Shown here piece by piece: positions 2,567 through 22,388 of a stretch of DNA of 24,604 nt (positions are counted from its first letter, which is position 1; each line of letters begins with the position of its first letter). The stretch comes from a virus: positions 1 through 24,604 of the IMG/VR virus record IMGVR_UViG_3300015371_000166; one strand, given 5' to 3'. The notes beneath the pieces were generated by a model. The model saw only the letters and a program-made list of their open reading frames with translations, had not been told where the DNA came from and ran no database searches. The position numbers were made by a program, and so were the translations under genes.

Positions 2567-4285
2567 ATGCCACGGTTTGGGCGAGCTCAACCGTATAATT
2601 TTTATCTTCTGCACGGACAACGTGACACGACTCCGCTGACCATTGATGTTCAGATTGTAGCGATTGAGACTGGTGATAGTCCTGTATTCACGGGTAGCTT
2701 GCATCCGATTGGAACGTTGGCTGCGGTGGAGACTGGTGACAGTGCTGCGTTCAATGCCAATGTGTACTGGAACACTACACTTGCCGCGACAGAGACAGGT
2801 GATACGGCTGCATTCAACGCACTCGTGCGATGGATCGCAACGTTGGCAGTAACAGAAGCAGGTGATGCACCGGCGTTCAATGCGAACGTTTATTGGAATG
2901 CGACACTTGCGGCAACGGAAACAGGTGATACGGCTGCGTTTAATGGTGGGATTATTGGCACTGGCACATTGGCTGCAACGGAACTCGCCGATGCATCAGT
3001 GTTCAACGGCACGGTGGCTTGGAATGCGACGCTGGCTGCGACGGAGACGGTCGATACAGCGGTGTTCAACGGCAACATCTATTGGAATGTAACGCTGGCG
3101 GCGACTGAGACAGGAGATAGCGCCGCGTTCAATGGTCTGGTGCGATGGTTGGCTACGCTGGCGGTGATTGAGACGGGTGACGGTGCTGTCTTTAATGGTG
3201 GGATCATTGGCACTGGAACATTGGCAGTAACAGAAACTGGTGATGGTGCCGCGTTCAACATCAAGTCCGAATGGCTGGCAACGCTGGCTGCGAGTGAAGC
3301 GGCAGATATTGCTGATTTTGCTGCAACGCTGGTTGGCGCTGGAGTCAATGCCAATCTTGATGTGATTGAAGCTGCCGATGGTGGCGTGTTCAACGGCACA
3401 GTGACTGGTATTGCTGGCACGATGGCGGCGATTGAGATTGCAGACACAGCGGCATTGAATGGCAATGTGACGTGGACTGCAACGTTGACCGCGACGGAAA
3501 CAGGTGAGGTTGCTGCATTCAATGCTTTGGTGCGCTGGCTGGCCACGCTGCAAAGTACAGAAGGTGCAGACATAGCGGCATTCACCGGAGATGTGCGCAA
3601 CTATGCAACGTTGCAGGTGAATGAAACGGCTGAAGTCGCAGTGTTCAACAGTAGCGTTTACTGGCAAGCGATTCTGAATGGCCTCGAGGGTGCTGGTGTA
3701 GCCAACATCAACGGGAGCATTTATTGGTCAGCTACGTTGGCAGCAACAGAAACTGGCGATGGTGCTGCGTTTGTCGCGCCGATCCCGATCTTCGGTACTT
3801 TGGCCGTAACAGAGACAGGCGATGGTGCCGCGTTCAGTGCCACAGCACGTATGAACATTGCGCTGGCTGCGGTGGAAACAGGCGATAGTGCCGCATTTGC
3901 AGCACCGATCCCGCTCTTCGGTACGCTGGCTGTTACGGAAAATGTTGATAGTGCCGCTGGCGCTGGTTCTGTTGTCTGGCGAGCGCAACTGAATGTGATT
4001 GAGACTGGTGATGGCGCTGCATTCACTGGCATGGGTGGTCTGATCGGTTACGTATTGGCCATTGAAGATGCCGACATCATGCACATCGTGGCACGCAATC
4101 AAGGTGTTGATATTCTGGACGGTGTTGAAGATGCGGATTCAGCCCGGTTTAATAGCGGACGAATACTCGAAGCATTTTATGAGATTATTGCGCGTGATGC
4201 CGACGAACCAGATGTTGTCGGACAAGATCAAGATGATCCGGATGTTGTAGGGCAAAAAAATAAAACACCAGAGGAAGTCACATGA
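2567..4285 (+). CDS. 21-residue tandem-repeat virion protein (572 aa)
   Basis: From about residue 28 to 535 this protein is made of roughly 24 imperfect 21-residue repeats. The consensus is A-T-L-A-A-T-E-T-G-D-x-A-A-F-N-(6 variable), the variable part often ending in an aromatic such as YWN or RWL. Only two units (near residues 238-284) have small insertions. The last part contains two copies of a short acidic motif, DEPDVVGQ and DDPDVVGQ, and a charged tail. The period and alternating pattern suggest a stacked beta structure, possibly a fibre stalk or decoration. I know of similar L-x-x-x-E-x-x-D-x-x-x-F repeats in proteins of alphaproteobacterial prophages, but cannot name a family. A GAGGAA site inside its 3' end serves the next gene, which overlaps it by an ATGA. 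Confidence 0.72.
   Translation: MPRFGRAQPYNFYLLHGQRDTTPLTIDVQIVAIETGDSPVFTGSLHPIGTLAAVETGDSAAFNANVYWNTTLAATETGDTAAFNALVRWIATLAVTEAGDAPAFNANVYWNATLAATETGDTAAFNGGIIGTGTLAATELADASVFNGTVAWNATLAATETVDTAVFNGNIYWNVTLAATETGDSAAFNGLVRWLATLAVIETGDGAVFNGGIIGTGTLAVTETGDGAAFNIKSEWLATLAASEAADIADFAATLVGAGVNANLDVIEAADGGVFNGTVTGIAGTMAAIEIADTAALNGNVTWTATLTATETGEVAAFNALVRWLATLQSTEGADIAAFTGDVRNYATLQVNETAEVAVFNSSVYWQAILNGLEGAGVANINGSIYWSATLAATETGDGAAFVAPIPIFGTLAVTETGDGAAFSATARMNIALAAVETGDSAAFAAPIPLFGTLAVTENVDSAAGAGSVVWRAQLNVIETGDGAAFTGMGGLIGYVLAIEDADIMHIVARNQGVDILDGVEDADSARFNSGRILEAFYEIIARDADEPDVVGQDQDDPDVVGQKNKTPEEVT
2648..4171 (+). repeat. About 24 tandem 63-bp degenerate coding repeats
   Basis: The 63-base period encodes the 21-residue units of the surrounding gene. 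Copies keep the same reading frame and have diverged mostly at the base level while retaining E, D and F at fixed positions, so this is a protein-coding repeat under selection and not a CRISPR or an origin. The most alike copies are adjacent or nearly so (for example those ending in YWN), which suggests expansion by unequal exchange. Confidence 0.85.
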
Positions 4286-4683
4286 CGACACGGCACCCGC
4301 AACAGTATTGGTTCGCTGGCGATGATTGGCAGATTGATGCAACGTTGCTGGATGCAAACGGTAATCCGTATGATTTGTCGGTGGCGACGATCAAATGGAT
4401 CATGCTCAACTCGTCGCAACAATGGGTGCTGAACGAAAACGACGCCAATATTTCTGTTACCGATGCAATCGCTGGCAAGTGTTCAATCATGATTACAGCA
4501 GGTAAGACTGCGCCGTTGTTCGGCGACACCTATACGGATTTCATTCGAATAATCAGCGGTGGTATTACGTCGACGTTGAGCTATGGCTTGCTTTACGTCA
4601 CCTCTGATCCATGGCGGACGACTGAAGCGGCGGCTGTGATCTTGCAGCGCCGAACTTATGTCAAGTTGCAGCGTGTGGCATGA
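4282..4683 (+). CDS. BppU-like N-terminal domain protein (133 aa)
   Basis: The protein starts with a phrase of the type Q-Y-W-F-A-G-D-D-W-Q-I-D-A-T-L-L-D-A-N-G-N-P-Y-D-L-S (positions 8-33). This W-x-I-x-x-x-L-x-D-x-x-G-x-P-x-D-L pattern is typical of the immunoglobulin-like N-terminal domain of baseplate upper proteins (BppU) and related phage adaptor proteins. The rest continues as beta strands with a W near residue 112 in a SDPWR segment, and the length fits a single domain. The ATG lies in an ATGA overlap with the repeat-protein gene and has GAGGAA before it. A likely role is to attach a fibre or receptor-binding protein to the virion, perhaps the repeat protein encoded just upstream. Fold assignment is moderate; partner is inference. 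Confidence 0.65.
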   Translation: MTTRHPQQYWFAGDDWQIDATLLDANGNPYDLSVATIKWIMLNSSQQWVLNENDANISVTDAIAGKCSIMITAGKTAPLFGDTYTDFIRIISGGITSTLSYGLLYVTSDPWRTTEAAAVILQRRTYVKLQRVA

Positions 4684-5243
4684 TCAGAGCCAGCACCAAA
4701 GAACAGCTTGGTTACAAGCGGATCGACGGGCCGTTCTCGAAGTATATGACGGCGCAAGAAACAGGAATTCTTGTTGCGTTGATCTCGAGTGTCAAGCCGC
4801 GTGTCATGATTGAATTTGGTTGCAACACTGGCGCGACATCAAAGCGTGTGCTCGACAATGTGCGCACCCTCGAGAAATATATCGGCATAGATGTGCCGTC
4901 GCATCATGTGCCGACACTTGGTTGTCAGATGAGCGAGGTTCCATTAAATCCAGGATTTCAGGCGGCGGGCGACGAGCGTTTCTTTTTACTGTTGGCAGAG
5001 GCGCCAACGGCTGACATGCTCGAGCCTTGCGATGCAGTATTCATTGACGGCGATCACAGCGAAGACGTTGTGTTGCGCGAGAGTCAGGTTGCCAAGCAGT
5101 TATTGCGATCGGGTGGGATTGTGTGCTGGCACGATTTTAATAATCCGGCAGTGGAGGTTACGACGGCATTGCGACGCCTGAATAAACTAGGCTGGCCGAT
5201 TCATTGTGTAATGGATTCGTGGCTGGCTTACATGCGGGTTTGA
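4680..5243 (+). CDS. Class I SAM-dependent methyltransferase (187 aa)
   Basis: The sequence shows the Rossmann-like methyltransferase core. Motif I is VMIEFGCNTGATS (residues 42-54) for binding SAM, followed by an acidic residue at the end of strand 2 in GIDV (D71). FIDGDHSEDV (121-130) and the HDF at 151-153 are the features that characterise the Methyltransf_24 group, which is often associated with glycan modification clusters. The substrate is not evident; it could be a sugar or a small molecule rather than DNA, since no DNA-methylase catalytic motif is present. The ATG is in an ATGA overlap with the gene upstream, so it is co-translated with fibre-like genes. Together with the glycosyltransferase end at 2-184 it suggests glycan decoration or modification, which is an inference. 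Confidence 0.85.
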   Translation: MIRASTKEQLGYKRIDGPFSKYMTAQETGILVALISSVKPRVMIEFGCNTGATSKRVLDNVRTLEKYIGIDVPSHHVPTLGCQMSEVPLNPGFQAAGDERFFLLLAEAPTADMLEPCDAVFIDGDHSEDVVLRESQVAKQLLRSGGIVCWHDFNNPAVEVTTALRRLNKLGWPIHCVMDSWLAYMRV

Positions 5244-5245
5244 CC

Positions 5246-7495
5246 ATGCCAATGAAGCCGCACGATGGTGAGAGCCAAAACGATTTCATGGGTCGTTGTG
5301 TTTCAGAGATGTTGGACAGCGATCCAAGTCGTACGCAGGAGCAAGCAGTTGCTATCTGCATGGACATCTGGCGCAACAAGGGTAAGCAAATGAAACGCAC
5401 GCACACACGTATGCCGCCGCCGCTTGATGACGAAGGTTTTAACGAGTTCATGGAACGTTGCACTGACGAGCTCGACATTGACGAGTGTCAGATCATTTGG
5501 GACGAGCGCGCGGTTCAAGGTGTGAAGCGCAAGACGCACGCATCCACAGTCAATGGAATGGAGTTTATTTTGTCCGATGAAACACCGGACAGAATGGACG
5601 ATGTGATTCTCAGCGACGGTTGGGATCTGAAGCAATTCAAGCGTAACCCGATTGCGTTGTTTGCTCATAACAGCAACTTCCCGATCGGCAAGTGGAGCAA
5701 CCTGCGTATTGAGGACAAGCAATTGCGCGGGCATCTCGAGCTCGCGCCATTCGGCACGTCGGAGCGTATTGATGAAATACGCAAGCTTGTCGATGCGGGA
5801 ATTCTCAAGGCAGTGTCCGTCGGCTTCAGGCCGCTGGAAATGAAAGAACGCGAAGGCAGCGATTGGGGTTTTACTTACATACGTTCGGAGCTGGTTGAAA
5901 CGAGCTTGGTTGCCGTGCCAGCAAATCCGAATGCACTGTCAGTTGCCAAGTCGCTGAAGGTTTCACCCGAGACAATCAATCTTGTTTTCGCCGGGCAAGG
6001 CAATGAAAGCGGGTTGAGAAGCAGGGAGTTCACTGGCGAGCACGCCCGAAGCAATTCAAAACGAGGATCAAAGATTATGTCAGGACTTGCCCAACGCATC
6101 GCCGATCTGGAGATGCAGATTGTCGCGAAACGTGATGCCCTCGAGACTCATCTCGGCAGCATTAACGACTCCAATGTCAGCGATGATGACATGGAGACGA
6201 CGCACAAGCTGAATTCGGAAATTGCGCAACTGTCGAAGACGCGCGAAATGCTTGTCACGTCGGAAAAGGCTCTTGGCAAGGTTACGGCTGGTGACACCCG
6301 TAGCCGCTCGCTCGTGCCCGTTATCGAGGCCACCGATCAGGCTTTGGCCGCCGCGCCGGCAGTCATTGTTAACCGCAAGAAGGATGTGGACATTGTACGG
6401 CTTCTTGCGCGTGCTGCGACTATTGCCTATGCCTCGAAGGCTTGGGCAAAGACGCATGAAGAGACGATGAAACAAATCGCCGAGCGTCACCCTGAATACA
6501 ATTCTGAAGAGCAGAAGATTGTTGCGGATATTGTCATCAAGACAGCATCTGCACCGGCCATGACGACCGTGACCGGTTGGGCCAAGGAACTCGCGCAAGA
6601 GACTTGGTCGACAATCATGCCAACACTTATGCCGAAAGGCATTCTGCCGCGTCTTGCGTCGCGTGGTCTGTCGCTCAACTTTGGTACGGCGGGCAAGATC
6701 AATATCCCGACCCGCTCGCGTACGCCGAATCTTGCCGGCGCATTCGTTGGTGAAGGTCTGGCGATCCCGGTCAAACAGGGTGCGTTCACGACCCAATCGC
6801 TTACTCCGAAAAAGATGGCGGTTATCACCACGTGGACTCGTGAGATGGACGAGCACAGTGTGCCTGCTATCGAAGGTCTGCTTCGTGAAGCAATCCAGGA
6901 TGATACTACGGTCGCAATTGATACGGTGTTGATCGACGCCAACGCAGCAACAGCAATTCGTCCGGCTGGTCTGCTGAACGGTGTTGCGGCAACGACAGCA
7001 ACGTCGGGCGGTGGTTTTGCTGCACTGGTTGGTGACATCTCCGCACTTGTTGGTGCACTGACAACCAACCTGTATGGCAATGTGCGCACGCTCGTTTGGC
7101 TCATGAATCCGACGGACATGCTCAAGGCATCGTTGCTGGTGCCAACCAACACCGGTGTTTTCCCGTTCCGCGACGAGATTGCACGTGGCACGTTGATGAA
7201 TATTCCGATCATCGACTCGGCCACTGTCACTGCAAAGACAATAATTCTTGTTGATGCAGCGGACTTTGTTGTGGTCGGTGGCGGTGCGCCGCGCATGGAA
7301 ATGAGCGATCAGGCAACGCTGCACATGGAAGATACCACGCCGCTCGAGCTCGTCGCTTCACCAAGCACGGTGGCGGCGCCACAGCGTTCGCTGTTCCAGA
7401 CTGACTCGCTGGCACTGCGCATGGTCCTGCCGCTGAATTGGATCCAGCGCCGCACTGGCACGGTCGCGTGGACGCAGAACGCCACGTGGGCGTAA
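5246..7495 (+). CDS. Prohead protease (S78)-major capsid protein fusion (749 aa)
   Basis: One frame carries two head proteins. I start it at 5246, three bases after the methyltransferase stop; an ATG at 5204 would overlap that gene by 40 bases and add a non-conserved leader. Residues 1-90 contain two related short motifs, NDFMGRC and NEFMERC. About 100-235 is an S78 prohead protease with likely catalytic H141 (LFAHNS), S191 (KAVSVGF) and a nearby acidic E218 (LVETSLVAVPANP). From about 278 a coiled-coil delta/scaffold-like segment follows, and from about 390 an HK97-fold capsid protein with GEG, LVWLMNP and PIIDS regions. Normally protease and capsid are separate genes; fusions are known in some phages. 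The protease would cut the scaffold segment and release the mature capsid subunit. An ATG at 6077 with GAGG upstream may also start the capsid alone (472 aa). Confidence 0.88.
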   Translation: MPMKPHDGESQNDFMGRCVSEMLDSDPSRTQEQAVAICMDIWRNKGKQMKRTHTRMPPPLDDEGFNEFMERCTDELDIDECQIIWDERAVQGVKRKTHASTVNGMEFILSDETPDRMDDVILSDGWDLKQFKRNPIALFAHNSNFPIGKWSNLRIEDKQLRGHLELAPFGTSERIDEIRKLVDAGILKAVSVGFRPLEMKEREGSDWGFTYIRSELVETSLVAVPANPNALSVAKSLKVSPETINLVFAGQGNESGLRSREFTGEHARSNSKRGSKIMSGLAQRIADLEMQIVAKRDALETHLGSINDSNVSDDDMETTHKLNSEIAQLSKTREMLVTSEKALGKVTAGDTRSRSLVPVIEATDQALAAAPAVIVNRKKDVDIVRLLARAATIAYASKAWAKTHEETMKQIAERHPEYNSEEQKIVADIVIKTASAPAMTTVTGWAKELAQETWSTIMPTLMPKGILPRLASRGLSLNFGTAGKINIPTRSRTPNLAGAFVGEGLAIPVKQGAFTTQSLTPKKMAVITTWTREMDEHSVPAIEGLLREAIQDDTTVAIDTVLIDANAATAIRPAGLLNGVAATTATSGGGFAALVGDISALVGALTTNLYGNVRTLVWLMNPTDMLKASLLVPTNTGVFPFRDEIARGTLMNIPIIDSATVTAKTIILVDAADFVVVGGGAPRMEMSDQATLHMEDTTPLELVASPSTVAAPQRSLFQTDSLALRMVLPLNWIQRRTGTVAWTQNATWA
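6062..6079 (+). promoter_or_regulatory. Possible internal ribosome binding site and start for free capsid protein
   Basis: CGAGG at 6062-6066 is followed ten bases later by an in-frame ATG at 6077, exactly at the protease-capsid boundary, where the sequence becomes MSGLAQRIADLEMQ, a typical N-terminus of an HK97 capsid protein with a helical delta domain. This could allow many free capsid subunits and few fusion molecules from one gene. The signal is modest and in-frame methionines are common, so this is a candidate only. Confidence 0.4.
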
Positions 7496-7845: not shown

Positions 7846-9202
7846 CGCATGCGCAGTTTGATCGCCAACACTTTGCGAACTGTGTTGCGTGCTGTTGAGG
7901 GTGCTTATCGTCCGGGTCCTTATCACTTGCCGATCACTGGCGGGTGGTTGCCTGACGGTGCGCCGCTCAATTGGTGGCAATGCGGCTATGATGTGCAAGG
8001 TCTAAGCACACGTTCGGCAATGGTGGAAGCATGTGTTTCAGCATATGCGCAAACCGTTGCCATGTGTCCGGGTGACCATTGGCGATTGAATAACAAGGGT
8101 GGCAGGGAGCGGGTGGAGACTTCCGCCCTCTCCCGCATCTTGCGGCACCCGAATGATTATCAAACGATCAGCGATTTTCTTCTGAACGCGACGCGATGGC
8201 TTTACACGACGGGCAATGCCTATGCCGTGGCTTTGCGCAACGACAGATTTGAAGTCAATTCGTTGCATTTGATGGACTCAAATATGTCTGTTCCGATATT
8301 GGCCGAGACAGGTGATATTTTTTATAGGTTGAACGGCAACGATGTTATTTCGAAACGGTTTGGAGAAGAATCCATTATCGTGCCGATGCGCGACGTGCTG
8401 CATATTCGCTTGCACACCGAGCGGCGGCGCAATCCGTTTCCATTGATCGGTGAGAGCCCAATCGTTGCAGCATATGACGATATCGGCATGGGCAATGCCA
8501 TCGCTGCGCAGCAAGCAGCTTTTTATCGCAACGAAGCGCGACCGTCTGCGGTGCTGTCAACTGACCTTGTACTTGACAAGGATCAGGTGCAGGCTTTGCG
8601 CGATCGGTGGCACGAGCAGACACAAGGTGTCAATCAGGGCAGCACGCCAATTCTGACGGCTGGCTTGAAAGTGTCGCCATGGGGAGTGCCGAGCAAAGAT
8701 GCTGCGACTGCCGATATTCTCAAGATTAGTAACGAGCATATTGCTTTGGCGTTTCGTGTGCCGTTGCAGATTCTCGGACTCGGTGGCACGAGCTATGGCT
8801 CAACTGAATTGTTGATGCAATCCTGGATTGCATCTGGTCTTGGCTTCGCACTCAATCATATCGAAGAAGCGTTTGGTTTGTTGTTTTCTTTGCGAGGTCA
8901 GCCTTACGAATATGCGGAGTTTGATACAGCGGCGCTGTTGCGTTCGGCGATGAAAGATCGAATGGAAGCTCTTGCGCGCGGTGTGCAAGGCGGCATCCTT
9001 GCGCCTAATGAGGCACGTGCACAAGAAGGCTACGACGAAGTTGAGTTTGGCGACGAGCCACGAGTGCAGCAACAGGTCGTGCCATTAAGTGCAGCCGGTA
9101 GCATCCCGGCAGCACCGGGACCGCAAGCTCCGCAACCGGCACCATCACCGGGGCCTGAAAGCGACACTTCCACTCCGCTGCCTCCGGAGAAAGGCAATCG
9201 AG

Positions 9203-10592
<1,390 letters not shown>

Positions 10593-10600
<8 letters not shown>

Positions 10601-12802: not shown

Positions 12803-14344
12803 ATGCCTGTATCATTTTCGTCTATCCCGTCCAATTGGCGGCAGCCTTTGTATTGGGTTGAAGTCGATCCGTCCAAAGCTGGCTTGCCGGTCTTTCGTCT
12901 TCCTGCATTGCTCGTTGGCATCAAGTTGACAGCAGGCACGGCGGCAGTTGATGTGCCGATTCCTGTGCAATCTGCCGCGCTCGCTGAACAGTATTTTGGC
13001 AAAGGCAGTCATCTGACGGCAGTGTGCAAAGCTTTCTTCAAAACGAATGCCAGTCAAGAGACGTGGGCGTTGCCCGTAGCTGAGCCGACTGGAACTCAGG
13101 CAACGGGTACGATCACGGTAACCACACCAGCGACACAGGCAGGTGTTCTTGATTTGTATATCGCCGGCCAGCACGTGGCCGTGGTTGTCAATCCCGGCGA
13201 GCCGGTCAATACGATTGCGACGAATATCGCTGCTGCGCTCACTGCTACACCTGATCTCCCGGTGACAGCTTTGGCTGCGGCCGCCGTGGTGACGTTGACG
13301 TGCCGCTGGAAAGGTACGTCCGGCAATGACATCTCGATGACGGATACTTATTACAAAGGTGCTGGTGGACAGGAGCGTCCAACAGGTCTTGGTATCACGT
13401 ACAACAATCCAACACTGACAACTGGCACGGGTGTTCCCGTGTTTACCAATGCAATCAGCAACCTCGGTGAGAAGGAAGCCGAGTTCGTCTGTCTGCCGTT
13501 CACTGATAGTGCAAGTCTTCTCGCGTGGGAAACAGAGTTTGGTTTTACGGACTCTGGCCGCTGGGGATGGATGAGGCAGAAATTCGGCAGTATTTGGACT
13601 GCGTATCGTGGCACTTATGCTGCGTGCTTGACGTTCGGGCAAGGTCGCAACAGTCCGCAAGTGTCGGCCATGGCTGTAGAACCACTGGTGCCGAGTCCAA
13701 CCTACGAAGTTGCGGCGGCGTATACTGGCAAGGCTGCACGCGGATATACCAATGATCCAGCGCGGCCATTGCAGACGCTGCATCTCGAGGGAATCCTGCC
13801 TGCGCCGCTCGAGGATCGCTTTATCATGAGCGAGCTGAACAGTCTTTCGCTGAACGGCATGGCAACGCAACGGACTGAGAGCGACAATGTGCCAATGATC
13901 GCTCGAGAGACGACTATGTTCCAGAAGAACCAATACGGTTATCCTGATGACGCTTACACGGATGCGACGACGTTGGCGACGCTTGCACGTCTGCTGCGCA
14001 ATCAACGGCAGGCTGTCACCAGTAAATGGCCACGGCACAAGCTGGCCAATGACGGAACACGGTTTGGTGCAGGGCAGGCGATTGTCACGCCGAAATCTAT
14101 CAAGGCTGAACTCGTTGCGCAGTATCGCATTGATGAATTCAATGGCCTTGTTGAAGATGCGTTCAATTTCAAGAGCAACTTGATCGTTGAGCGTGACAGT
14201 AACGATCCGACGCGGGTCAATGTGTTGTACCCGCCCGACCTGATTAATGGCTTGCGTCTGTTCGCCGTGCTGGCGCAATTCCGTCTTCAGTACAATCGCG
14301 GCATTGATGAAACGGCGGCCGTCAATCAGATCGGCACATTCTAA
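12803..14344 (+). CDS. Contractile tail sheath protein, Mu gpL-like (513 aa)
   Basis: Length and order (after DUF2635, before tube) match Mu gpL. The start is fixed by two purine-rich sites (GGAGG, AAAGGAG) directly upstream. The N-terminus has S-S-I-P-S-N-W-R-Q-P (6-15) then the P-V-P-I-like strand region typical of Mu-like sheath starts. The central insertion domain (about 90-190) is Thr/Val-rich. The C-terminal half, from about 380 on, has the conserved core: DDAYTDATTLATLARLLR, a following KWPRHKLANDG and a final FRLQYNR segment. The sheath wraps the tube and contracts to drive it into the host. This is a major late protein, which fits the strong translation signals. Confidence 0.95.
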   Translation: MPVSFSSIPSNWRQPLYWVEVDPSKAGLPVFRLPALLVGIKLTAGTAAVDVPIPVQSAALAEQYFGKGSHLTAVCKAFFKTNASQETWALPVAEPTGTQATGTITVTTPATQAGVLDLYIAGQHVAVVVNPGEPVNTIATNIAAALTATPDLPVTALAAAAVVTLTCRWKGTSGNDISMTDTYYKGAGGQERPTGLGITYNNPTLTTGTGVPVFTNAISNLGEKEAEFVCLPFTDSASLLAWETEFGFTDSGRWGWMRQKFGSIWTAYRGTYAACLTFGQGRNSPQVSAMAVEPLVPSPTYEVAAAYTGKAARGYTNDPARPLQTLHLEGILPAPLEDRFIMSELNSLSLNGMATQRTESDNVPMIARETTMFQKNQYGYPDDAYTDATTLATLARLLRNQRQAVTSKWPRHKLANDGTRFGAGQAIVTPKSIKAELVAQYRIDEFNGLVEDAFNFKSNLIVERDSNDPTRVNVLYPPDLINGLRLFAVLAQFRLQYNRGIDETAAVNQIGTF

Positions 14345-14356: not shown

Positions 14357-14716
14357 ATGGCTCAGAGAATTGCAGGCACCGCGTTCCTGAAAGTGGATGG
14401 TGCTATCTATCCGTTGCGAGGCAACTTCACCGTCAGTCCATCGGCATTGGAGCGAGCAGGTTTGGCCGGGCAGGATTTTGTGCACGGTTTTTCCGAGATG
14501 CCACGTGTGCCGTATATCGAGGGCGACGTTTCACTCGTTCCCGATTTGTCAATGGATAGCGTGGAAGCTGTTATCAACGCAACCGTGACCGCAGAGCTCG
14601 CGAATGGAAAGACTTATGTCTTGCGTGAGGCATGGTGTCGTTCGGCTCTCGAGCTCAATACCCGAGAGGGTCAAACCCGCGTCCGCTTCGAGGGCGTTAG
14701 CTGCGACGAGATCTAA
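14357..14716 (+). CDS. Tail tube protein, Mu gpM-like (119 aa)
   Basis: This small protein immediately follows the sheath, as the tube does in Mu-like phages (PF10618-like). It has G-T-A-F-L-K-V-D-G (7-15), a typical opening, and a core GKTYVLREAWCRSALELNT (about 84-102), with a final E-G-V-S-C-D-E-I that resembles known tube ends. The protein polymerises in hexameric rings around the tape measure, making the inner tube. Its ribosome binding site is the strongest in the window. An alternative in-frame GTG/TTG start is not needed. Sure of the family. Confidence 0.92.
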   Translation: MAQRIAGTAFLKVDGAIYPLRGNFTVSPSALERAGLAGQDFVHGFSEMPRVPYIEGDVSLVPDLSMDSVEAVINATVTAELANGKTYVLREAWCRSALELNTREGQTRVRFEGVSCDEI

Positions 14717-15040
14717 ATGGCAGATGAATTAAACGGCAAACCTGCACCTGTTATTCCGACAGTCAATGTAAAGCTTCGCAAGTCAGTGATCGCCAACGGC
14801 GAGGAGACGAAGGAACTGATTTTCAGGGAACCAACCGCTCGAGACATTGAGATGTGTGGCAACCCTGTGCTGATCGATATGGCAGTTGATCCGCCAAAGA
14901 TCAGTTTTGACGCGAAGGCAATGACACAAATGATGGCGGCACTTGCAACAGTGCCACCGTCAACTATCAGGCAAATGCATCCACGCGACTGGAATACAGC
15001 CGCTTGGAACCTCGCAAATTTTTTCCTGCCGGAGCTATAA
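14717..15040 (+). CDS. Tail assembly chaperone, short form (107 aa)
   Basis: The ATG directly follows the tube stop. The sequence fits the phage tail assembly chaperone of Mu-like phages (gp41-like, Phage_TAC_7): an N-terminal beta pair, then L-I-F-R-E-P-T-A-R-D-I-E (34-45), where the family has L-x-x-P-T-A-R-D, and a helical end. It binds the tape measure and tube subunits during assembly. Near its 3' end is a slippery site (15016-15025) that would move a fraction of ribosomes to the -1 frame, making a longer protein. Very similar arrangement is conserved in many tailed phages. Confidence 0.88.
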   Translation: MADELNGKPAPVIPTVNVKLRKSVIANGEETKELIFREPTARDIEMCGNPVLIDMAVDPPKISFDAKAMTQMMAALATVPPSTIRQMHPRDWNTAAWNLANFFLPEL

Positions 15041-15192
15041 ACGAGGATACCATCCTCGACTGCTATCGTCTCGCCGACAGGTACAAGCGTGATCCCGACG
15101 AGTTCCTTAGCAAGCCGCTCTCCGCTATAGCCCGGCATGTATATTGGACGAGCGTGCTGATCGACAGGCAACGGCCACCTGAAGAAGAATGA
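14717..15192 (+). CDS. Tail assembly chaperone, -1 frameshift long form (about 158 aa)
   Basis: Residues 1-103 are the short form up to N-F-F. After the slip, the -1 frame gives P-A-G-A-I-N-E-D and continues for 55 residues to the stop at 15190-15192. That downstream frame has no ATG or GTG at a sensible place near its beginning (only a TTG at 15004), so it is better explained as a frameshift extension than as a separate gene. The added part, with a helix-rich D-C-Y-R-L-A-D-R-Y stretch and a final short acidic tail, resembles the T-type extension of such chaperones. The tape-measure gene starts in its ATGA end. Known in principle from Mu gp41/42 and lambda G/GT. Confidence 0.8.
15016..15025 (+). 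promoter_or_regulatory. -1 ribosomal slippery site
   Basis: In the zero frame, the bases read A AAT TTT (15016-15022), a canonical X-XXY-YYZ heptamer, and the overlapping T TTT TTC (15019-15025) is also in the right phase. Slips on either would produce the same protein. It lies 15 bases before the zero-frame stop. I did not identify a convincing downstream stem or pseudoknot by eye. Confidence 0.8.
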
Positions 15193-17156
15193 GTGAAAAG
15201 ACTGAATTTGAAATAATGCTTCGTGACAGCATTTCGCCGTCGTTGAAATCGATCGGCCGTGAAATGAAGTCGCTGGTCAAAACACTGTCGGCAGACCCCG
15301 ACGGCAGTGACAAGGGTCTGCCGCAGTTTCGTCGTTCGTCTTCGTTACTGGCGACTACGGCGCGCGGTGTCACTCGTGAGCTATCAGGCTTTGTTGGATT
15401 TGTCGGCGGTGTTGGCCGTGGTCTGCTTGGCACGCTCGGTTCGATCGAGACAGTGCGGCGCATTTCAACAGCGTTGATTGACTTAGCTGAACGTCGCGTT
15501 CAATTGTCCATGTTTGCGCATGACACGCGGCTTGCGGCCGACGACGTTGAGAAGATGCAAAAGGCAATGTCCCGCATGGGGATCAGTGCCGATCAAAGCA
15601 ATCAGTTCATTTCGAATCTTAGTACCAAAATCCAGGATTTGCAGGCGATGAAAGAAGGTAGCACTTTCTTTCAGGACTTGTCGAAGATGGGCGAGAAAGG
15701 TTTTCAGCTCGCCAATGAATTGTTGAACGAAAAAGATTATTCGAAAGCGATCGACAAAATTCTCGAGACGTTTCGCAGGCAAGGACCTGAAGCTCAGTTT
15801 TATATGTCGCAGGTTCTTGGTGTGCCCGTGTCGGTGCTTGAGAATTTACGCAAGAACATGGACAAGGTTGCGGACAGTCCAAGTGTCGATCCGAAAGTGG
15901 CGCAACAATTTTTGGATAACCAAAAGAAATTTATGGAGCGGTTTGATGCTGAATGGACAGTGTTCGGTGCACATGCCCTCGAGAAAATAAACGGGTGGTA
16001 TGACGAGATTTCGCCGGAAGGCGAATTGAAGTTTTCCGAGTTTGGAAAAAAGTTTTTCGACGAGGTCGACAAAACAATCAGGCAGGATATTGAAGACGCA
16101 CAAAAACTTCTCGACCTGTACCTGAAGCTGAAGGAATATTACGAGCAGCTTTCGCCTGACAAGGTGCAGAAAAATATCCGCGATAAATTCAAGCCGTTTT
16201 TCGACAAGAGCCAAGACGACGCCAAACAACGGGTTGGACAGACGCAGCAAGAAAACCGTTTGCTGAAAGCCATTGAGGATATCCTGAAACGGCTGTCGGG
16301 CACCGACGTCATGGGCGGCGGATCTGGCGCGGCGGGTGGCGGCGGTGGCGGCGGATATGGTGGCGAGGGCACGGACGCGGGTGGCAGCGGTGCTGGAGGT
16401 GCGGGACGCGGTGGCGGGCGCACGTCTGACCGCGTCCCGGGCGGCCCGGTGGCACCTGTGCCTCCACCTCCGGGTGGCGGCGACGGGCAATATGTGCGTG
16501 AGGATCAAGGCAGGGTAGCCGGCATCCGCAAGGGCGCGTTGGCTCCCGAGGTCCGTGACTATCTGACGGCGGCCGGCCGTGAAAACAATTTGGTTGCGCA
16601 TGTCTACTCAGGCGGCCAGCGGATGCCCGGCGCAGAAGGTGCCACTGGCTCACACCGTCATGACGAAGGCGGTGCAGGTGATTTGAAATTGTGGGACCCG
16701 GCGCAGAAGCGTTATCTCAACAGCAGCAATCCGGAAGACGCAAAACGGATGGCTGCTTACGTCTCGTCAGCCGTCAAGTATGGCGCGACGGGTGTTGGCC
16801 ACGGTGCGGGTTACATGGGTCCAGAGTCGTTGCATATTGGCGGCGGCAAGCCAACGTCATGGGGAGGCTCACCGTGGATCGAAGATGCACGGCGTGCGGG
16901 AATGGTTGCACGAAGCGAAGCTGGTGCAAAGATTCCGTTGCCTGACGTGCCACAAGGCTATCGTGCATTTCTTGGCAAGGGTCGCGACAACATGGACCGC
17001 AACCCGGACAGCGTTTTTGAAAAAGGAAGTAACGCGATCGCGTTTCAATTTAATAACGTGCCGTCAGGTGTGCGTACCAATGCGGAAGCTGGCGGATCGT
17101 TTACACAGGTTGAGGTTAGCCGCAAGAGTGCAATGGAAGAGCGAGCAGCAGATTAA
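15189..17156 (+). CDS. Tape measure protein 1 with M15-like peptidase end (655 aa)
   Basis: It starts in an ATGA overlap with the chaperone extension. About residues 1-325 resemble the second tape measure downstream. The middle is helical and charged. From about 375 to 433 lies a Gly-rich linker (long GGG runs, then P-P-P-P). The last part, about 460-560, has G-S-H-R-H-D-E-G-G-A-G-D (487-498) and S-L-H-I-G-G-G (547-553). This S-x-H-x-x-x-G-x-A-x-D plus distant H fits the zinc-ligand arrangement of M15/DD-peptidase-like wall hydrolases (candidate ligands H489 or H491, D498 and H549). The tape measure sets tail length and is carried at the tip; such a wall-cutting end helps the tube pass the cell wall. 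Confidence 0.8.
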   Translation: MSEKTEFEIMLRDSISPSLKSIGREMKSLVKTLSADPDGSDKGLPQFRRSSSLLATTARGVTRELSGFVGFVGGVGRGLLGTLGSIETVRRISTALIDLAERRVQLSMFAHDTRLAADDVEKMQKAMSRMGISADQSNQFISNLSTKIQDLQAMKEGSTFFQDLSKMGEKGFQLANELLNEKDYSKAIDKILETFRRQGPEAQFYMSQVLGVPVSVLENLRKNMDKVADSPSVDPKVAQQFLDNQKKFMERFDAEWTVFGAHALEKINGWYDEISPEGELKFSEFGKKFFDEVDKTIRQDIEDAQKLLDLYLKLKEYYEQLSPDKVQKNIRDKFKPFFDKSQDDAKQRVGQTQQENRLLKAIEDILKRLSGTDVMGGGSGAAGGGGGGGYGGEGTDAGGSGAGGAGRGGGRTSDRVPGGPVAPVPPPPGGGDGQYVREDQGRVAGIRKGALAPEVRDYLTAAGRENNLVAHVYSGGQRMPGAEGATGSHRHDEGGAGDLKLWDPAQKRYLNSSNPEDAKRMAAYVSSAVKYGATGVGHGAGYMGPESLHIGGGKPTSWGGSPWIEDARRAGMVARSEAGAKIPLPDVPQGYRAFLGKGRDNMDRNPDSVFEKGSNAIAFQFNNVPSGVRTNAEAGGSFTQVEVSRKSAMEERAAD

Positions 17157-19169
17157 ATGCCGACGCGGCAAGAAGAACTTGAGATTGCATTACGCGATTC
17201 AATCACTCCGGGATTGAAACAGATCGCGTTGGGACTTCGCGAGCTGAACAAGGCAGCACGTGAGGGTATGGAAGGTTCGGCACAGGAGACGGATAAGCTC
17301 CGTCAATCTGTCGATCGACTTGCCGAGTCATCGCGCAATGCACTTCGTGATGTTCAAAATTTATCTAATCGAATCCTGGATATTGGCAAAACTATTCTCG
17401 GCGTTGGCGGTGCATATAGTGCTATCACGCAGTTGACGAAATCATTGACTGAGCTGGCGACAACACGTGTACAGCTCGAGATGTTTGCGCAAGATACGCG
17501 AATCACTGCTGAGGGCATTGAAACCATGCGCGGCGCTATGAGCCGCATGGGTGTCGAAGCCAAGACCGCGGATGGTTATATCGCGTCCATGTCAAACAAA
17601 TTGCAGCAACTTGCGGCCATGCGAGAAGGCAGTCAGTTGTTTCAGGAGCTCGAGAAGATGGGTCCGGGTGGCGTCAAGCTTGCTCGTGATCTCATGAGCG
17701 AAACGGACGTCAACAAGCAGATACATAAAATCATTGAGGTCTTCAAAACTCAGTCGCCACAGGTTCAATATTATCTGGCACAGATGCTTGGCGTTCCGCA
17801 GTCGGTGCTATTGAATTTGAGTGAGTACGAAAAGAAGGTTGGCGAGGTTCTCAAGGTATCGGCGGAGATAGCGCAGAAATACGTCGACAATCAAAAAGAG
17901 CTTTTGGAAAATTTGGATGCTGAATGGACGGTGTTTGGTGCGCATGCCCTCGAGAAGCTGAATAGATGGTACGAAGAAATAAGCGGTGGCAAAGAGCTTG
18001 CAAATAAAAAGCATCCTGTCGCGGAATGGTTCAAGAATCAATTTGATTTGCTGGAAAAGGACGTCAGAACCACGATCACCGAGGTCAAGGAACTTTATGC
18101 CCTGTTTGAAGATATTATGAAATGGGGCGATTGGGTTATTGAGAAATGGAAACAGTTCCGCGGCACAAGTGAGAAACAGGTTACTGAACGCAAGGAAGCT
18201 GGGGAGTCCGATGCTCTTGCATTAGGTCAAGCCGCAGCCGGCGACGTGCCCGACAAAGGCAGCGCCGCAGCTATTGAACAACAGCGGCTTGGAGACGAAA
18301 ACATCGAACTGCTGACCAGCATCAAGGATTCGTTGCTGCGTATCGAAGCTCCAACCGGAGCAACGGGTGGTATGGGTGGCGCTGGTTTGCAGCGTTGGGG
18401 CGGACCAATGCAGGCATCCGGTGGAGGGTTTCGTCCGCAACGCGGTACGGGAATTCCCCGCTCGAGCAAGTATGAAGGCGAGTCGCAACCTGCATCAACC
18501 GAAGCTGGTGTGATTGACCGCTCGAGATTTGCGAAGGAATTGGCAGGTAATCCGGAGCTGCGAGACAAGGTGCTGGCTATTTCAGCCGGCGAGCAGGGCA
18601 GCAACAAGCAAGGCAACATCGCCGTCATAGAAACGATGATGAATCGTGCAGCCATGACAGGTACGACGCTTGCATATCAGGCGCGGACGGTTGGCCAAGG
18701 TGGTTATTATGCTGGTTACAAACCCGGTGCATTGAATGATCCGAAGCTTCGTGAATTTTACGAGAACAATCTGAAGACGGTTCTCGAGGGCAGCAACGTC
18801 AGCAATTATGCGACGGATAATGCATCGGGTGGTCTGGCGGGGCGGCACGTGCAGACAGGACGCTTTGAAAGGCGGTTCGAGGCTGGCGGCGAAACATTCT
18901 TTGCACCCGGTTGGGGTAACTCGGGCGGTGGCCGCGACCGTGCGCATTACGATCAGTGGCGTGCAAACATTGACGATAATCAGCGTAAGCGTGTTTGGGA
19001 GAAGGGCACTGCGGCTGTCACCGTAGATTTCGGTGACATGAAATATCGCACGCAGGAAAGCAAGGAAGGCGGCGGCGTATTCAAGCCGTTGAATAATGAG
19101 CGCGAACCACAGGCACCAAAGTCGGGCGGTTGGGTCGACTCGATCAATAACCGCTGGAAGTATCAGTGA
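17157..19169 (+). CDS. Tape measure protein 2 with transglycosylase/SleB-like end (670 aa)
   Basis: The ATG directly follows the stop of the first tape measure. The first about 325 residues resemble its neighbour: both begin with an E-I-x-L-R-D-S-I-(S/T)-P-(S/G)-L-K pattern and both contain D-A-E-W-T-V-F-G-A-H-A-L-E-K at almost the same place (residues 253 and 254). The C-terminal part differs. About 460-600 has V-L-A-I-S-A-G-E-Q-G ... N-I-A-V-I-E-T-M-M-N-R-A, the order of a cell-wall hydrolase (SleB-like) or lytic transglycosylase, with E479 the likely catalytic residue. It is either a second tape measure, or a tail tip lysin derived from one. Confidence 0.78.
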   Translation: MPTRQEELEIALRDSITPGLKQIALGLRELNKAAREGMEGSAQETDKLRQSVDRLAESSRNALRDVQNLSNRILDIGKTILGVGGAYSAITQLTKSLTELATTRVQLEMFAQDTRITAEGIETMRGAMSRMGVEAKTADGYIASMSNKLQQLAAMREGSQLFQELEKMGPGGVKLARDLMSETDVNKQIHKIIEVFKTQSPQVQYYLAQMLGVPQSVLLNLSEYEKKVGEVLKVSAEIAQKYVDNQKELLENLDAEWTVFGAHALEKLNRWYEEISGGKELANKKHPVAEWFKNQFDLLEKDVRTTITEVKELYALFEDIMKWGDWVIEKWKQFRGTSEKQVTERKEAGESDALALGQAAAGDVPDKGSAAAIEQQRLGDENIELLTSIKDSLLRIEAPTGATGGMGGAGLQRWGGPMQASGGGFRPQRGTGIPRSSKYEGESQPASTEAGVIDRSRFAKELAGNPELRDKVLAISAGEQGSNKQGNIAVIETMMNRAAMTGTTLAYQARTVGQGGYYAGYKPGALNDPKLREFYENNLKTVLEGSNVSNYATDNASGGLAGRHVQTGRFERRFEAGGETFFAPGWGNSGGGRDRAHYDQWRANIDDNQRKRVWEKGTAAVTVDFGDMKYRTQESKEGGGVFKPLNNEREPQAPKSGGWVDSINNRWKYQ

Positions 19170-20230
19170 TGGTTGGCAAGGCTGAAGAACAAGCGGTGCT
19201 GACAATCAAGGGGCAAGAATATCGTGACTGGGAGTCAGTCATGGTGCGGCGGGCATTGAACGAACAACCGCCGTTTCGATTTCGCTTCACGTGTTCTGAA
19301 GCTATCCCGATTGCCACAAACTTCGCTGCCCTGCAAATCATGCCCGGCGATGATTGCACGGTGACGCTTGCAGGCGAACTCGCGATAAGTGGCAAGGTGT
19401 CAACCCGTCAGGTGTATTACGACAAGCGGCGGCACTACGTTGAAATCCAAGGCTCGACTTACACGGAAGTGCTCGCTAAATCGAGCCCGGTAACCAAGAC
19501 CATGGAGCACAAGGACGTCACCTTTGAGCAACTGGCGAAGTCGTTGCTGAAGCCGTTCAATATTCCTTTCAAGATTGAGGGCGGGCAAATCCCGCAAATC
19601 AAGTTCCCGCGCGTGTCATTGATGCACGGGCTCAGTGTATTCGATCATTTGGATTTGTACGGTCGCAGCGTTGGTGTGAATTTCACCAGTGATGCACAAG
19701 GGAGTTTCGTGGCGTGTGTTGCCCCAACGGGTGGTGGCGATACGTTGATCGAAGGTGAAAATATTTTGGTTGGCCGGGAAATTATTTATGCGCCAAGCAT
19801 GGAAGGTGCAGCGCCGGCGATCAGTCAGGAAACAGGCAATAACAAAAAATGGGGTGCCGACGTTTCGCATGTGCCGTATCAGACGCAAGACTTACAGCAG
19901 TTTACAAAACAGTTTTCGCCATTTGTCATCCCGATGGAACTGCCGACGGCTGACAAGAAGCACATGGAGGGACGGGCAAGCACTGAGCGCAATTGGAAAG
20001 AGGACGACAGGGTGACGGTGTTTTGCACTGTGTATGGCTGGCTGAAGCCGAGCGGTGGTTTATGGGACCGAAATAAAAAGGTGCACGTGAAGAGTCCGAT
20101 GCTTGTCATGGACATGGAGCTGAAAACTAAGTCGGTGACGTTTACGCAAGACGGTGCCGAGGGCAGCAAGACGGTTCTTGAGCTGTGCAACGATAGCGCG
20201 CTTGGTGGATCAACGCCGCAAATGCGATGA
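19169..20230 (+). CDS. Baseplate hub protein, Mu gpP (gp44)-like (353 aa)
   Basis: The ATG at 19169 overlaps the previous TGA (TGATG); a GTG three bases earlier is also possible. The first 90 residues have the E-Y-x-D-W-x-S-V-M-V-R-R pattern of gpP/gp27-like hub proteins, and the region about 85-215 is the Mu gpP-type middle, including VYYDKRRHYVEIQGSTYTEVL and a following domain with L-L-K-P-F-N-I. The end carries V-H-V-K-S-P-M-L-V-M-D-M-E-L (about 307-320), the typical 'V-x-S-P-M-L' of the hub C-terminal barrel. It forms a trimer that links the spike to the tube. Strong agreement with order in Mu-like tails. Confidence 0.9.
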   Translation: MVGKAEEQAVLTIKGQEYRDWESVMVRRALNEQPPFRFRFTCSEAIPIATNFAALQIMPGDDCTVTLAGELAISGKVSTRQVYYDKRRHYVEIQGSTYTEVLAKSSPVTKTMEHKDVTFEQLAKSLLKPFNIPFKIEGGQIPQIKFPRVSLMHGLSVFDHLDLYGRSVGVNFTSDAQGSFVACVAPTGGGDTLIEGENILVGREIIYAPSMEGAAPAISQETGNNKKWGADVSHVPYQTQDLQQFTKQFSPFVIPMELPTADKKHMEGRASTERNWKEDDRVTVFCTVYGWLKPSGGLWDRNKKVHVKSPMLVMDMELKTKSVTFTQDGAEGSKTVLELCNDSALGGSTPQMR

Positions 20231-20245
20231 AAGGAAATCTAGGAA

Positions 20246-21142
20246 ATGAACGAACGGCAAACGCTTTCAATGATCGCCAATCAACTTCGCATGTCAACAT
20301 CTCGAGCGACTGTTCGATCGTTTGATGACGAGCACCTGATGCAGCAAATCAAGCAAGCGGATGTTTATCATTCGGAGACGCCAAGCGATTTCGAGCGATG
20401 GCAGATGGTTGGCTTGACGGCCACACCGCTTGATCAGGATGAAGAGGACAAGCAGCAGCAAAACAAGAAGGGCAACGATGCCGACGACGGAGATTGGAAC
20501 CACGATCAACCGAAGGGTCCAGCAGCCGAAGCCGTCATGCTTTATCCGGGTGCGCAACGCAATCACCCGATTGCGATAGTCGATGATCGTCGGGTGCGTC
20601 CGTACAAGGTGCCGAAGGGTGCGAGCGCCATGTATGCTGCTTCGGGCACCGGGCAAATGCTGTATCACAACGACGAAGGCTCATCGTTGATCGCCACCAA
20701 TAACCCAAAGTACGGCAAGGACCAGCAGCAAAAAGAACGATACGCATCGCTGCGTCATGTCAACAAGAAGCCGCAGGAGCGCAAGCTTGATAAGCAGGGC
20801 GATCAGGGCGGTGGCAGCTCTCCGTCAATCAGTGTGCTTGCGGCTGAAAGCAGTGGCTCGAGCAGTCAGCCGTACAAGCACGAAGGTGAAGAGGTCAATA
20901 GCGAGGTACGCTGCACAAGCAATCGTATTGAGTTTCGGATTGGCGATACTGTTGTGGGTCATTACGATAAAGGCACGTCGACATGGACCTTGATTGGAAA
21001 GGTCAAGCTTGGCAGTGAAGATGCCAACCATCCGGTCTACGGCAACAATGAAGGCATTGGCAAAACAACCAAGGCTGACGGCACCGGAGCTGTGCTGGTG
21101 AAAGCACCCGAACCCGGTCCGAAAGTCAGCGAGGACGTATGA
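20246..21142 (+). CDS. Baseplate spike protein, Mu gp45-like (298 aa)
   Basis: The start has an AGGA site 5 bases upstream. The N-terminal half matches the Mu gp45 pattern: D-D-E-H-L-M-Q-Q-I-K (27-36), E-R-W-Q-M-V-G-L (50-57), A-E-A-V-M-L-Y-P-G (94-102) and A-I-V-D-D-R-R-V-R-P (110-119), then K-G-A-S-A-M-Y. Between about 62 and 91 there is a low-complexity insert of D, E, K, Q and N, which is not part of the usual OB-like domain. The remainder has another polar stretch (155-215) and a beta-rich end with C-T-S-N-R-I-E-F-R-I-G-D at about 229-240, and a tail of E, P, K. It makes the membrane-piercing trimer at the tail tip. The usual apex H-x-H motif was not seen. Confidence 0.82.
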   Translation: MNERQTLSMIANQLRMSTSRATVRSFDDEHLMQQIKQADVYHSETPSDFERWQMVGLTATPLDQDEEDKQQQNKKGNDADDGDWNHDQPKGPAAEAVMLYPGAQRNHPIAIVDDRRVRPYKVPKGASAMYAASGTGQMLYHNDEGSSLIATNNPKYGKDQQQKERYASLRHVNKKPQERKLDKQGDQGGGSSPSISVLAAESSGSSSQPYKHEGEEVNSEVRCTSNRIEFRIGDTVVGHYDKGTSTWTLIGKVKLGSEDANHPVYGNNEGIGKTTKADGTGAVLVKAPEPGPKVSEDV

Positions 21143-21720
21143 GCCAGATTTCGCAATTCAGCACGCCATGGCGCGACTTGCTTATGCAGCAAGCGTCGTT
21201 CCGTGGTGTTGTCTTTCACATTGAGACAGGTGCGCGGCTATCAGGTCGGCGCACGGTCGTGCATGAGTACCCGAAACGAAACGACCCATATTCTGAAGAT
21301 ATGGGAAGGCAGGCACGGCGTTGGAGCGTGCAAGGTTACTTGATCTTCAGCCCGAGCAATCAGCTTTACGTTTACACCAACCAGCGGTCGGCGCTGTATC
21401 GCGCGCTTGAGACGGATGGTCCGGGTCGGTTAGTGCACCCGGTGTTTGCACCGGGCGGCACCATGGCCATGGTTGAGCGTTACACCATGGTTGAGAACCG
21501 CACGCGTGGCGGTTTCACCGAATTTGAAATGCAGTTTGTGGAGGCGGGGCAAGCAGGCAATTCGTTGCAATTCACTAACACGACGACTCAGGTCACAAGT
21601 CAAGCAAGTGCGACGGATCAGTCGGCAGCCAACATGGCCAACAATGCGCCGACGAATAGCGTGTGGAGTTCAGGTGCGCCGGCATTCCGTGACACGGCAG
21701 GGCAGACAAGCGTCCTATGA
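21139..21720 (+). CDS. gpN/DNA circularisation protein, N-terminal half (193 aa)
   Basis: The N-terminal motif is the mark of the DNA_circ_N family (PF07157): A-S-F-R-G-V-V-F-H-I (19-28), then G-R-R-T-V-V-H-E-Y-P-K-R-N-D (36-49), and E-D-M-G-R-Q-A-R-R-W (53-62). The rest is short beta strands and then a Ser/Thr/Ala/Gln-rich tail from about 145. In Mu, gpN is about twice as long and its C-terminal part seems to be the next gene here. In Mu it also precedes gpP, whereas here it follows the spike. Despite the name, in Mu-like phages gpN is a baseplate-hub linker. Coupled upstream by ATGA. Confidence 0.85.
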   Translation: MSQISQFSTPWRDLLMQQASFRGVVFHIETGARLSGRRTVVHEYPKRNDPYSEDMGRQARRWSVQGYLIFSPSNQLYVYTNQRSALYRALETDGPGRLVHPVFAPGGTMAMVERYTMVENRTRGGFTEFEMQFVEAGQAGNSLQFTNTTTQVTSQASATDQSAANMANNAPTNSVWSSGAPAFRDTAGQTSVL

Positions 21721-22388
21721 GTATTCATGACGAGCAAGAACAACTGCTCGAGATCATCAACGCTATTTGTGATTACATGCTGCAAATGGTTTCGGCCAAG
21801 GGCGAGCAGGCAGCACGGTTACGTCACCAGATCGGGCAGTTGAGATCGAACGGTTTGGAGTGGCTGCACGAAAAAATCTTCGGTACGAAGATGCTGGATT
21901 GCTTTGTCACGGCGCGCACTTTGCCGATCACGACGGACCTTGTTGCGTCGGTGAGAGTGCAAATCCAGGATTTGGCACCGACCGGAATGATCGCAATCAT
22001 CGTGGTTGAGAGCGCAATTATTTTCTGTCTAACGACCGAGAGTATCTTCATTACGCAAATGACGTTTCGATCGGCTGACGATGTACAGGCAATTATGAAA
22101 CGGATGAAGATTGCTTTTGATGGTGCTCGCGATCAAGCGGCGGACAGGATGGATTCGGCAAGCTATCAACAGTTGACCTATCTGTCGGGCTCGCTGATCA
22201 ATCATCTCAATGCAACGGCGCTGGCACTACCGCGCCTTGTCTATCTGACATTTGGTGCATCGTTGCCGTCGCTGCGTCTGGCCAATGTGATTTATCAAGA
22301 CGCTTCTCGGTCCGATGAGTTGGTGGATGACAACAAGACGGTGCACCCGCTTTTCATGCAGCGTGAGATCAGGGCACTTAGCGCATGA
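21717..22388 (+). CDS. gpN C-terminal half-like protein (223 aa)
   Basis: The ATG sits in an ATGA overlap with the N-part gene and is in a different frame, so this is a true separate gene. Residues 165-222 resemble the end of full-length DNA circularisation proteins: a helix that crosses L-P-S-L-R-L-A-N-V-I-Y-Q-D-A-S-R (190-205), then D-E-L ... N-K-T-V-H-P-L-F. The earlier part is mostly helical with one hydrophobic stretch at about 91-110 (APTGMIAIIVVESAIIF) that also fits a buried core helix or membrane segment. Combined length of the two genes (416 aa) is close to a complete gpN. Recognition rests on the last 60 residues. Confidence 0.62.
   Translation: MSIHDEQEQLLEIINAICDYMLQMVSAKGEQAARLRHQIGQLRSNGLEWLHEKIFGTKMLDCFVTARTLPITTDLVASVRVQIQDLAPTGMIAIIVVESAIIFCLTTESIFITQMTFRSADDVQAIMKRMKIAFDGARDQAADRMDSASYQQLTYLSGSLINHLNATALALPRLVYLTFGASLPSLRLANVIYQDASRSDELVDDNKTVHPLFMQREIRALSA

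Follow-up and report, generated by a model that had tools for sequence, protein, structure and literature searches.

Two adjacent genes in a viral contractile tail cluster encode paralogous tape-measure-type proteins, here called W1 and W2, that appear to end in complementary wall hydrolases, a predicted LAS/M15 zinc peptidase in W1 and a predicted SleB-type lytic transglycosylase in W2. Tape-measure proteins with hydrolase domains are already known; in the open-licence papers searched we found no account of complementary hydrolases divided between two conserved tandem genes. Our preferred reading, to which we assign a probability of about 0.6, is that W1 and W2 share one contractile tail tube and release their hydrolases at entry.

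The tail gene cluster

The stretch of DNA analysed, referred to as the window, is a viral contig of 24,604 nt from IMG/VR and carries a Mu-like contractile tail cluster. As identified by Pfam and PHROG, the genes were arranged in the order sheath, tube, chaperone, W1, W2, gp44-like hub, gp45-like protein, two gpN-like halves, gp46-like wedge and baseplate J. The features considered here are as follows.

12803..14344, + strand, tail sheath (PHROG 165, E 1e-163)
14357..14716, + strand, tail tube (PF10618, E 3e-34)
14717..15040, + strand, tail assembly chaperone, gp41-type, Phage_TAC_7 (PF10109, E 2.5e-11), directly 5' of W1
15189..17156, + strand, W1, tape-measure-type protein 1, 655 aa (PHROG 2276, E 3.6e-13; paralogy)
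16506..16904, + strand, predicted W1 hydrolase cassette, residues ~440-572 (AlphaFold2, Foldseek, VIA-align, conservation in 14 sequences)
16962..17126, + strand, W1 C-terminal tail, residues 592-646, homologous to the W2 tail
17157..19169, + strand, W2, tape-measure-type protein 2, 670 aa (PHROG 2276, E 1.4e-11; N-part 41% identical to W1)
18489..18914, + strand, predicted W2 hydrolase cassette, residues 445-586 (AlphaFold2, VIA-align, BFVD neighbours, conservation in 20 sequences)
18939..19106, + strand, W2 C-terminal tail, residues 595-650, homologous to the W1 tail
19166..20230, + strand, gp44/P-like baseplate hub (PF21683, PF22255; PHROG 177, E 2e-40), next after W2

Comparison with Pantoea phage AH07 (MZ501270), a phage of the Mu/SfV type, placed W1 and W2 in the tape-measure slot between the tail-assembly chaperone and the hub gene. 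Both clusters have the order sheath, tube, assembly protein, tape measure and baseplate, and the window sheath was 43.8% identical to that of AH07. The cultured AH07 has a single tape-measure gene of 673 aa. The window differs in having two, and also in the division of its gpN-like gene into two parts. A short frame in the open reading frame list (15004-15192) overlaps the chaperone gene and extends to the W1 start.

Paralogy of W1 and W2

A preliminary description of the window had proposed two adjacent tape-measure genes of 655 and 670 aa that share their N-terminal halves. Both open reading frames were found at the coordinates listed, and the first ~320 residues of W1 and W2 were 41% identical (E~1e-82). 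The tape-measure reading was borne out by PHROG 2276, 'tail length tape measure protein', which both proteins matched; no match above cut-off was obtained with the tape-measure models of Pfam and NCBIfam. W1 consists of a helical N-part (1-~320), a segment of the form LL..I...L near 357, a Gly-rich linker, the LAS/M15-like cassette and a C-tail. W2 has the same layout but with a SleB-like cassette. The stretch between the N-part (~320) and the LL..I...L segment was variable in tape-measure paralogues. In the alignment of relatives the N-part of ~320 residues was kept in both copies, invariant positions included. Sequence comparison supports W1 and W2 as paralogous tape-measure-type proteins that stem from an old duplication.

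The TAA stop of W1 adjoins the ATG start of W2 with 0 bases between them. In the related contigs L003 and L010 gene 1 and gene 2 overlap, and in L008 they are separated by 1 base.

The identical block DAEWTVFGAHALEK was located at residue 253 of W1 and 254 of W2, where the preliminary description had placed it. A short gene-conversion tract is possible at these 14 residues. The DNA of the block (15945-15986 and 17916-17957) was identical at 38/42 positions, and identity was 68% over the best-aligning 218 bases.

Predicted hydrolase cassettes

One peptidase and one glycan cutter had been proposed for the C-terminal parts, and structure prediction recovered both hydrolase folds. Neither sequence nor profile searches of PDB yielded a relevant relative, so a fold search was needed. 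The LAS and SleB assignments are predicted folds with motifs and should not be read as proof of activity.

The W1 cassette was modelled by AlphaFold2 from W1 and 13 relatives (pLDDT 76.8, pTM 0.76). Foldseek against PDB ranked Ply500 first, followed by Zn DD-peptidase, LysB4, LysECD7 and VanX, with a best E of 0.024. LAS/hedgehog chains occupied the top rows of VIA-align, with Z 7.5 to 1lbu. The predicted fold and the motif are shared with Ply500 (2vo9), Zn DD-peptidase (1lbu) and the T5 endolysin (2mxz) at 15-18% identity. The model thus agrees with the M15-like character suggested for this C-terminus, and support for a LAS fold is moderate. The cassette contains the motif HxxGxAxD...H. Among the zinc-ligand residues named earlier (H489/H491, D498, H549), all were placed correctly, but H489 varies (H, V or T). 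R490, H491 and D498 were present in 14/14 cassette sequences and H549 in nearly all, and the zinc ligands of W1 are, by homology, probably H491, D498 and H549. The W1 cassette gave no convincing match in Pfam or NCBIfam and no match to the Pfam M15 family.

The W2 cassette model (AlphaFold2, W2 and 19 relatives) had a core pLDDT above 90. VIA-align gave Z 7.9 (4fet) and 7.1 (4f55) to SleB, and the next unrelated row scored 3.0. Its neighbours among BFVD viral models were named SleB or cell wall hydrolase. Foldseek against PDB gave no E better than 3, no match was found in Pfam, and NCBIfam gave none that was convincing. The predicted fold and a catalytic-type Glu are shared with the SleB germination lytic transglycosylase (4fet, 4f55) at ~12% identity. 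E479 and the M-N-R motif, on which the SleB/transglycosylase-like reading had been based, are at the positions described. E479 was invariant in 20/20 sequences, as were E492, N496, R497 and most of SNYATDN 549-555. Support for the predicted SleB lytic-transglycosylase fold is moderate, since the domain is mostly helical and its Z stays under 8.

Both cassettes are also present in virion proteins of other types (e.g. OLIVR1), and therefore we regard them as mobile modules. In single-sequence searches only the W1 cassette of the pair matched phage records, those of Agrobacterium phages OLIVR1-3. SleB-like cassettes were also seen in short separate genes in L004 (9755-10579), L033, L037 and L038; the L004 gene follows a tail tube-like gene.

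The C-terminal tails

The preliminary description had called the C-termini unrelated. This holds for the hydrolase cassettes, which are different, but not for the last ~55 residues, which are homologous. W1 592-646 aligned with W2 595-650 with E 0.004 and 9e-4 in two comparisons. In a search with a profile of gene-1 tails, most gene-2 tails scored above 1,600 shuffled decoys; the exceptions were the gene-2 tails of L010 and L029, which ranked among the decoys. The C-tail of W1 is probably a hub-anchoring segment.

Gene-1 tails retain the motif F.FNNVP.GVKTNA. Gene-2 tails carry a diverged form of the motif and end in F(N/S)DRWYFQ or similar, so that the hub binding of both proteins need not be alike. 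The tail of the single gene in L022 has a version of both gene-1 and gene-2 features. Judging from these motifs, ancestral tail features may have been partitioned between the copies after duplication.

Distribution and phylogeny of the pair

A profile of the N-part matched 15 viral contigs of IMG/VR. The tandem pair was present in L003, L008, L010/L016, L011, L012/L013/L015, L017, L018, L019 and L021; L014 and L020 are truncated by contig ends near the tape-measure gene. About ten distinct IMG/VR lineages thus have the pair, plus L029, which was located via the W2 cassette. The tandem copies of L029 are sisters in the tree (56% identical, 97/91 support), and for this reason they represent a separate duplication. 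L022 and L040 each have a single tape-measure gene with a SleB-like cassette. No confirmed relative among viral contigs was obtained by a single-sequence search with W1, no full-length relative of W1 or W2 was found in 50,697 phage records, and scans of genome contigs found no relative.

The tree contained two subfamilies, inside each of which gene-1 and gene-2 copies grouped separately. The separate clades indicate that both copies were retained as the lineages diverged. One common origin for every gene-1 copy was not rejected (p-AU 0.116), and the main clade may stem from one duplication or from two.

These data bear on the reading that one copy is a degenerating leftover from a recent duplication. 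Duplications do arise, as the recent copies of L029 demonstrate, but both open reading frames were intact in all complete loci, orthologues were 52-55% identical across lineages and catalytic residues were conserved among the cassette relatives. A leftover copy is highly improbable, and the cross-lineage retention of both genes has largely refuted it already.

Enzyme class and gene position

Gene-1 cassettes were LAS in the window, Amidase_2 in L010 and L011, VanY-like in L017, M15/extensin-like in L012 and L021, and CHAP in L019. L003 gene 1 has a domain with a YkuD-like motif and one with an M15-like motif, and gene 1 is YkuD-like in L008 and L029; in these three the YkuD-like (L,D-transpeptidase) assignment is by the H...GC motif only. 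No hydrolase was seen in L018 gene 1 (513 aa). Gene-2 cassettes were SleB-like in the window, L003, L008, L013, L017, L021 and L029, and Phage_lysozyme2 in L010; L019 gene 2 received no assignment. The SleB-like cassette was found in no gene 1 of the pairs. L010 Amidase_2, L019 CHAP and L010 Phage_lysozyme2 were above the Pfam cut-off and L011 Amidase_2 and L017 VanY below it; the remaining cassettes were assigned by own profile, fold or motif.

Among the recognised cassettes, which leave L018 gene 1 and L019 gene 2 outside the rule, gene 1 carried a peptide/amide-side enzyme and gene 2 a glycan cutter. The cassettes changed at least 7 times on the tree in gene 1 and at least 2 times in gene 2. 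The peptide/glycan class label requires only 2 changes on it, as few as gene position itself. The association of class with position is a strong pattern and not a tested statistic, as the sample is small and its members are related. The pair offers a system, found in nature, where enzyme families are swapped but the cutters of peptide and of glycan hold their gene positions.

Assembly and entry

Among the relatives and papers that we examined, a tail has as a rule a single tape-measure gene. The conserved pair poses the question, raised in the preliminary description as a mixed or alternate ruler, of how one tail length is obtained from two rulers.

We propose that the stop codon of gene 1 and the start codon of gene 2, which abut or overlap, would couple translation and so yield matched amounts of W1 and W2. 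While the tube grows on the hub, both proteins would load into it via the common C-tail and the helical N-part, and they may form either one mixed bundle or two separate homo-oligomers. On tail contraction W1 and W2 would be expelled first, ahead of the DNA. The LAS/M15 domain of W1 would cleave stem peptides and the SleB-like domain of W2 the glycan strand, and the combined cleavage would breach the peptidoglycan locally so that the DNA could pass. Duplication may have put two wall-cutting chemistries on two carriers, such that either cassette could be exchanged while the other was kept. Should both proteins prove to be virion components, this would suggest that entry into these hosts requires cleavage of both bond types.

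It is improbable that W1 and W2 are instead alternate rulers, used in different virions so that tails of two types would differ in their entry enzymes. Each protein has a full set of tape-measure parts, and the single-gene relatives L022 and L040 exist, as such an arrangement would allow; however, the abutting or overlapping genes suggest joint expression, and the complementary enzyme classes make most sense together.

With W1 and W2 taken to share one tube, their organization in it can be considered further. A tentative proposal, slightly short of even odds, is a heteromeric ruler in which the paralogues co-assemble as a mixed bundle, each with half of the peptidoglycan kit; it would have evolved at least twice, with enzyme class fixed by position. 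The distances from Met to the LL..I...L segment in gene 1 and gene 2 were 357/384 in the window, 364/386 in L003, 363/374 in L008, 357/385 in L010 and 369/369 in L017. The unequal distances within pairs speak against two strictly identical rulers.

The inequality of lengths 5' of the linker also fits another arrangement, in which one protein is the ruler and the other, a cargo enzyme derived from a tape measure, needs its N-part and C-tail just for loading into the lumen. The divergence of the gene-2 C-tail from the motif of gene 1 and the singletons points the same way, and the tail lumen of RcGTA has been proposed to hold a peptidase separate from the tape measure (PMC7296036). We consider this rather unlikely, as the entire N-part of ~320 residues is kept in both proteins, seemingly beyond the needs of a mere loading signal.

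Comparison with known systems

Peptidoglycan hydrolase motifs have been described in the tape-measure protein of mycobacteriophage TM4 (PMC1796659) and, with a CHAP domain, in phiCbK gp95 (PMC3556154). As in these phages, W1 and W2 would each join a tail-lumen ruler to a domain for wall hydrolysis that is thought to aid entry. Unlike those reports, which describe one tape-measure gene per phage, the window has two paralogues with different predicted chemistries.

The diffocin tape measure is a homotrimer that spans the tube, and a transglycosylase and an endopeptidase are located in the hub protein CD1368 (PMC10996793). Diffocin and the window, the latter known from its genes, are alike in that both peptidoglycan bond types would be targeted in one contractile particle. 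CD1368 carries both domains on one hub polypeptide with a separate tape measure, whereas in the window the two chemistries are placed on two tape-measure paralogues. No report of a conserved tandem tape-measure pair with complementary hydrolases was found in a search of open-licence papers. Matches for 'two tape measure' concerned chaperones or were unrelated.

Other features of the window and related contigs

The gpN/DNA-circularisation hub protein is encoded in the window by two overlapping genes, 21139-21720 and 21717-22388 (PHROG 184 positions 5-155 and 279-404). Similar gene pairs were seen in L029 (4601-5167, 5164-5835) and L040. The gp44-like hub of L003 (11136-13877) is one frame with a long N-terminal extension resembling a LamG domain and repeats; the hub of the window is without the extension.

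A single open reading frame of the window (5204-7495) contains both prohead serine protease (S78) and major capsid protein domains, and a gene with a methyltransferase domain (4680-5243) lies directly 5' of it. A protein with collagen repeats and a weak match to CBM5/12 is encoded at 9089-10600, directly 3' of the portal gene and 5' of the tail genes; L003 also begins with a collagen-repeat open reading frame. L022 has an open reading frame resembling a GIY-YIG homing endonuclease (4211-4963) between its sheath and tube genes.
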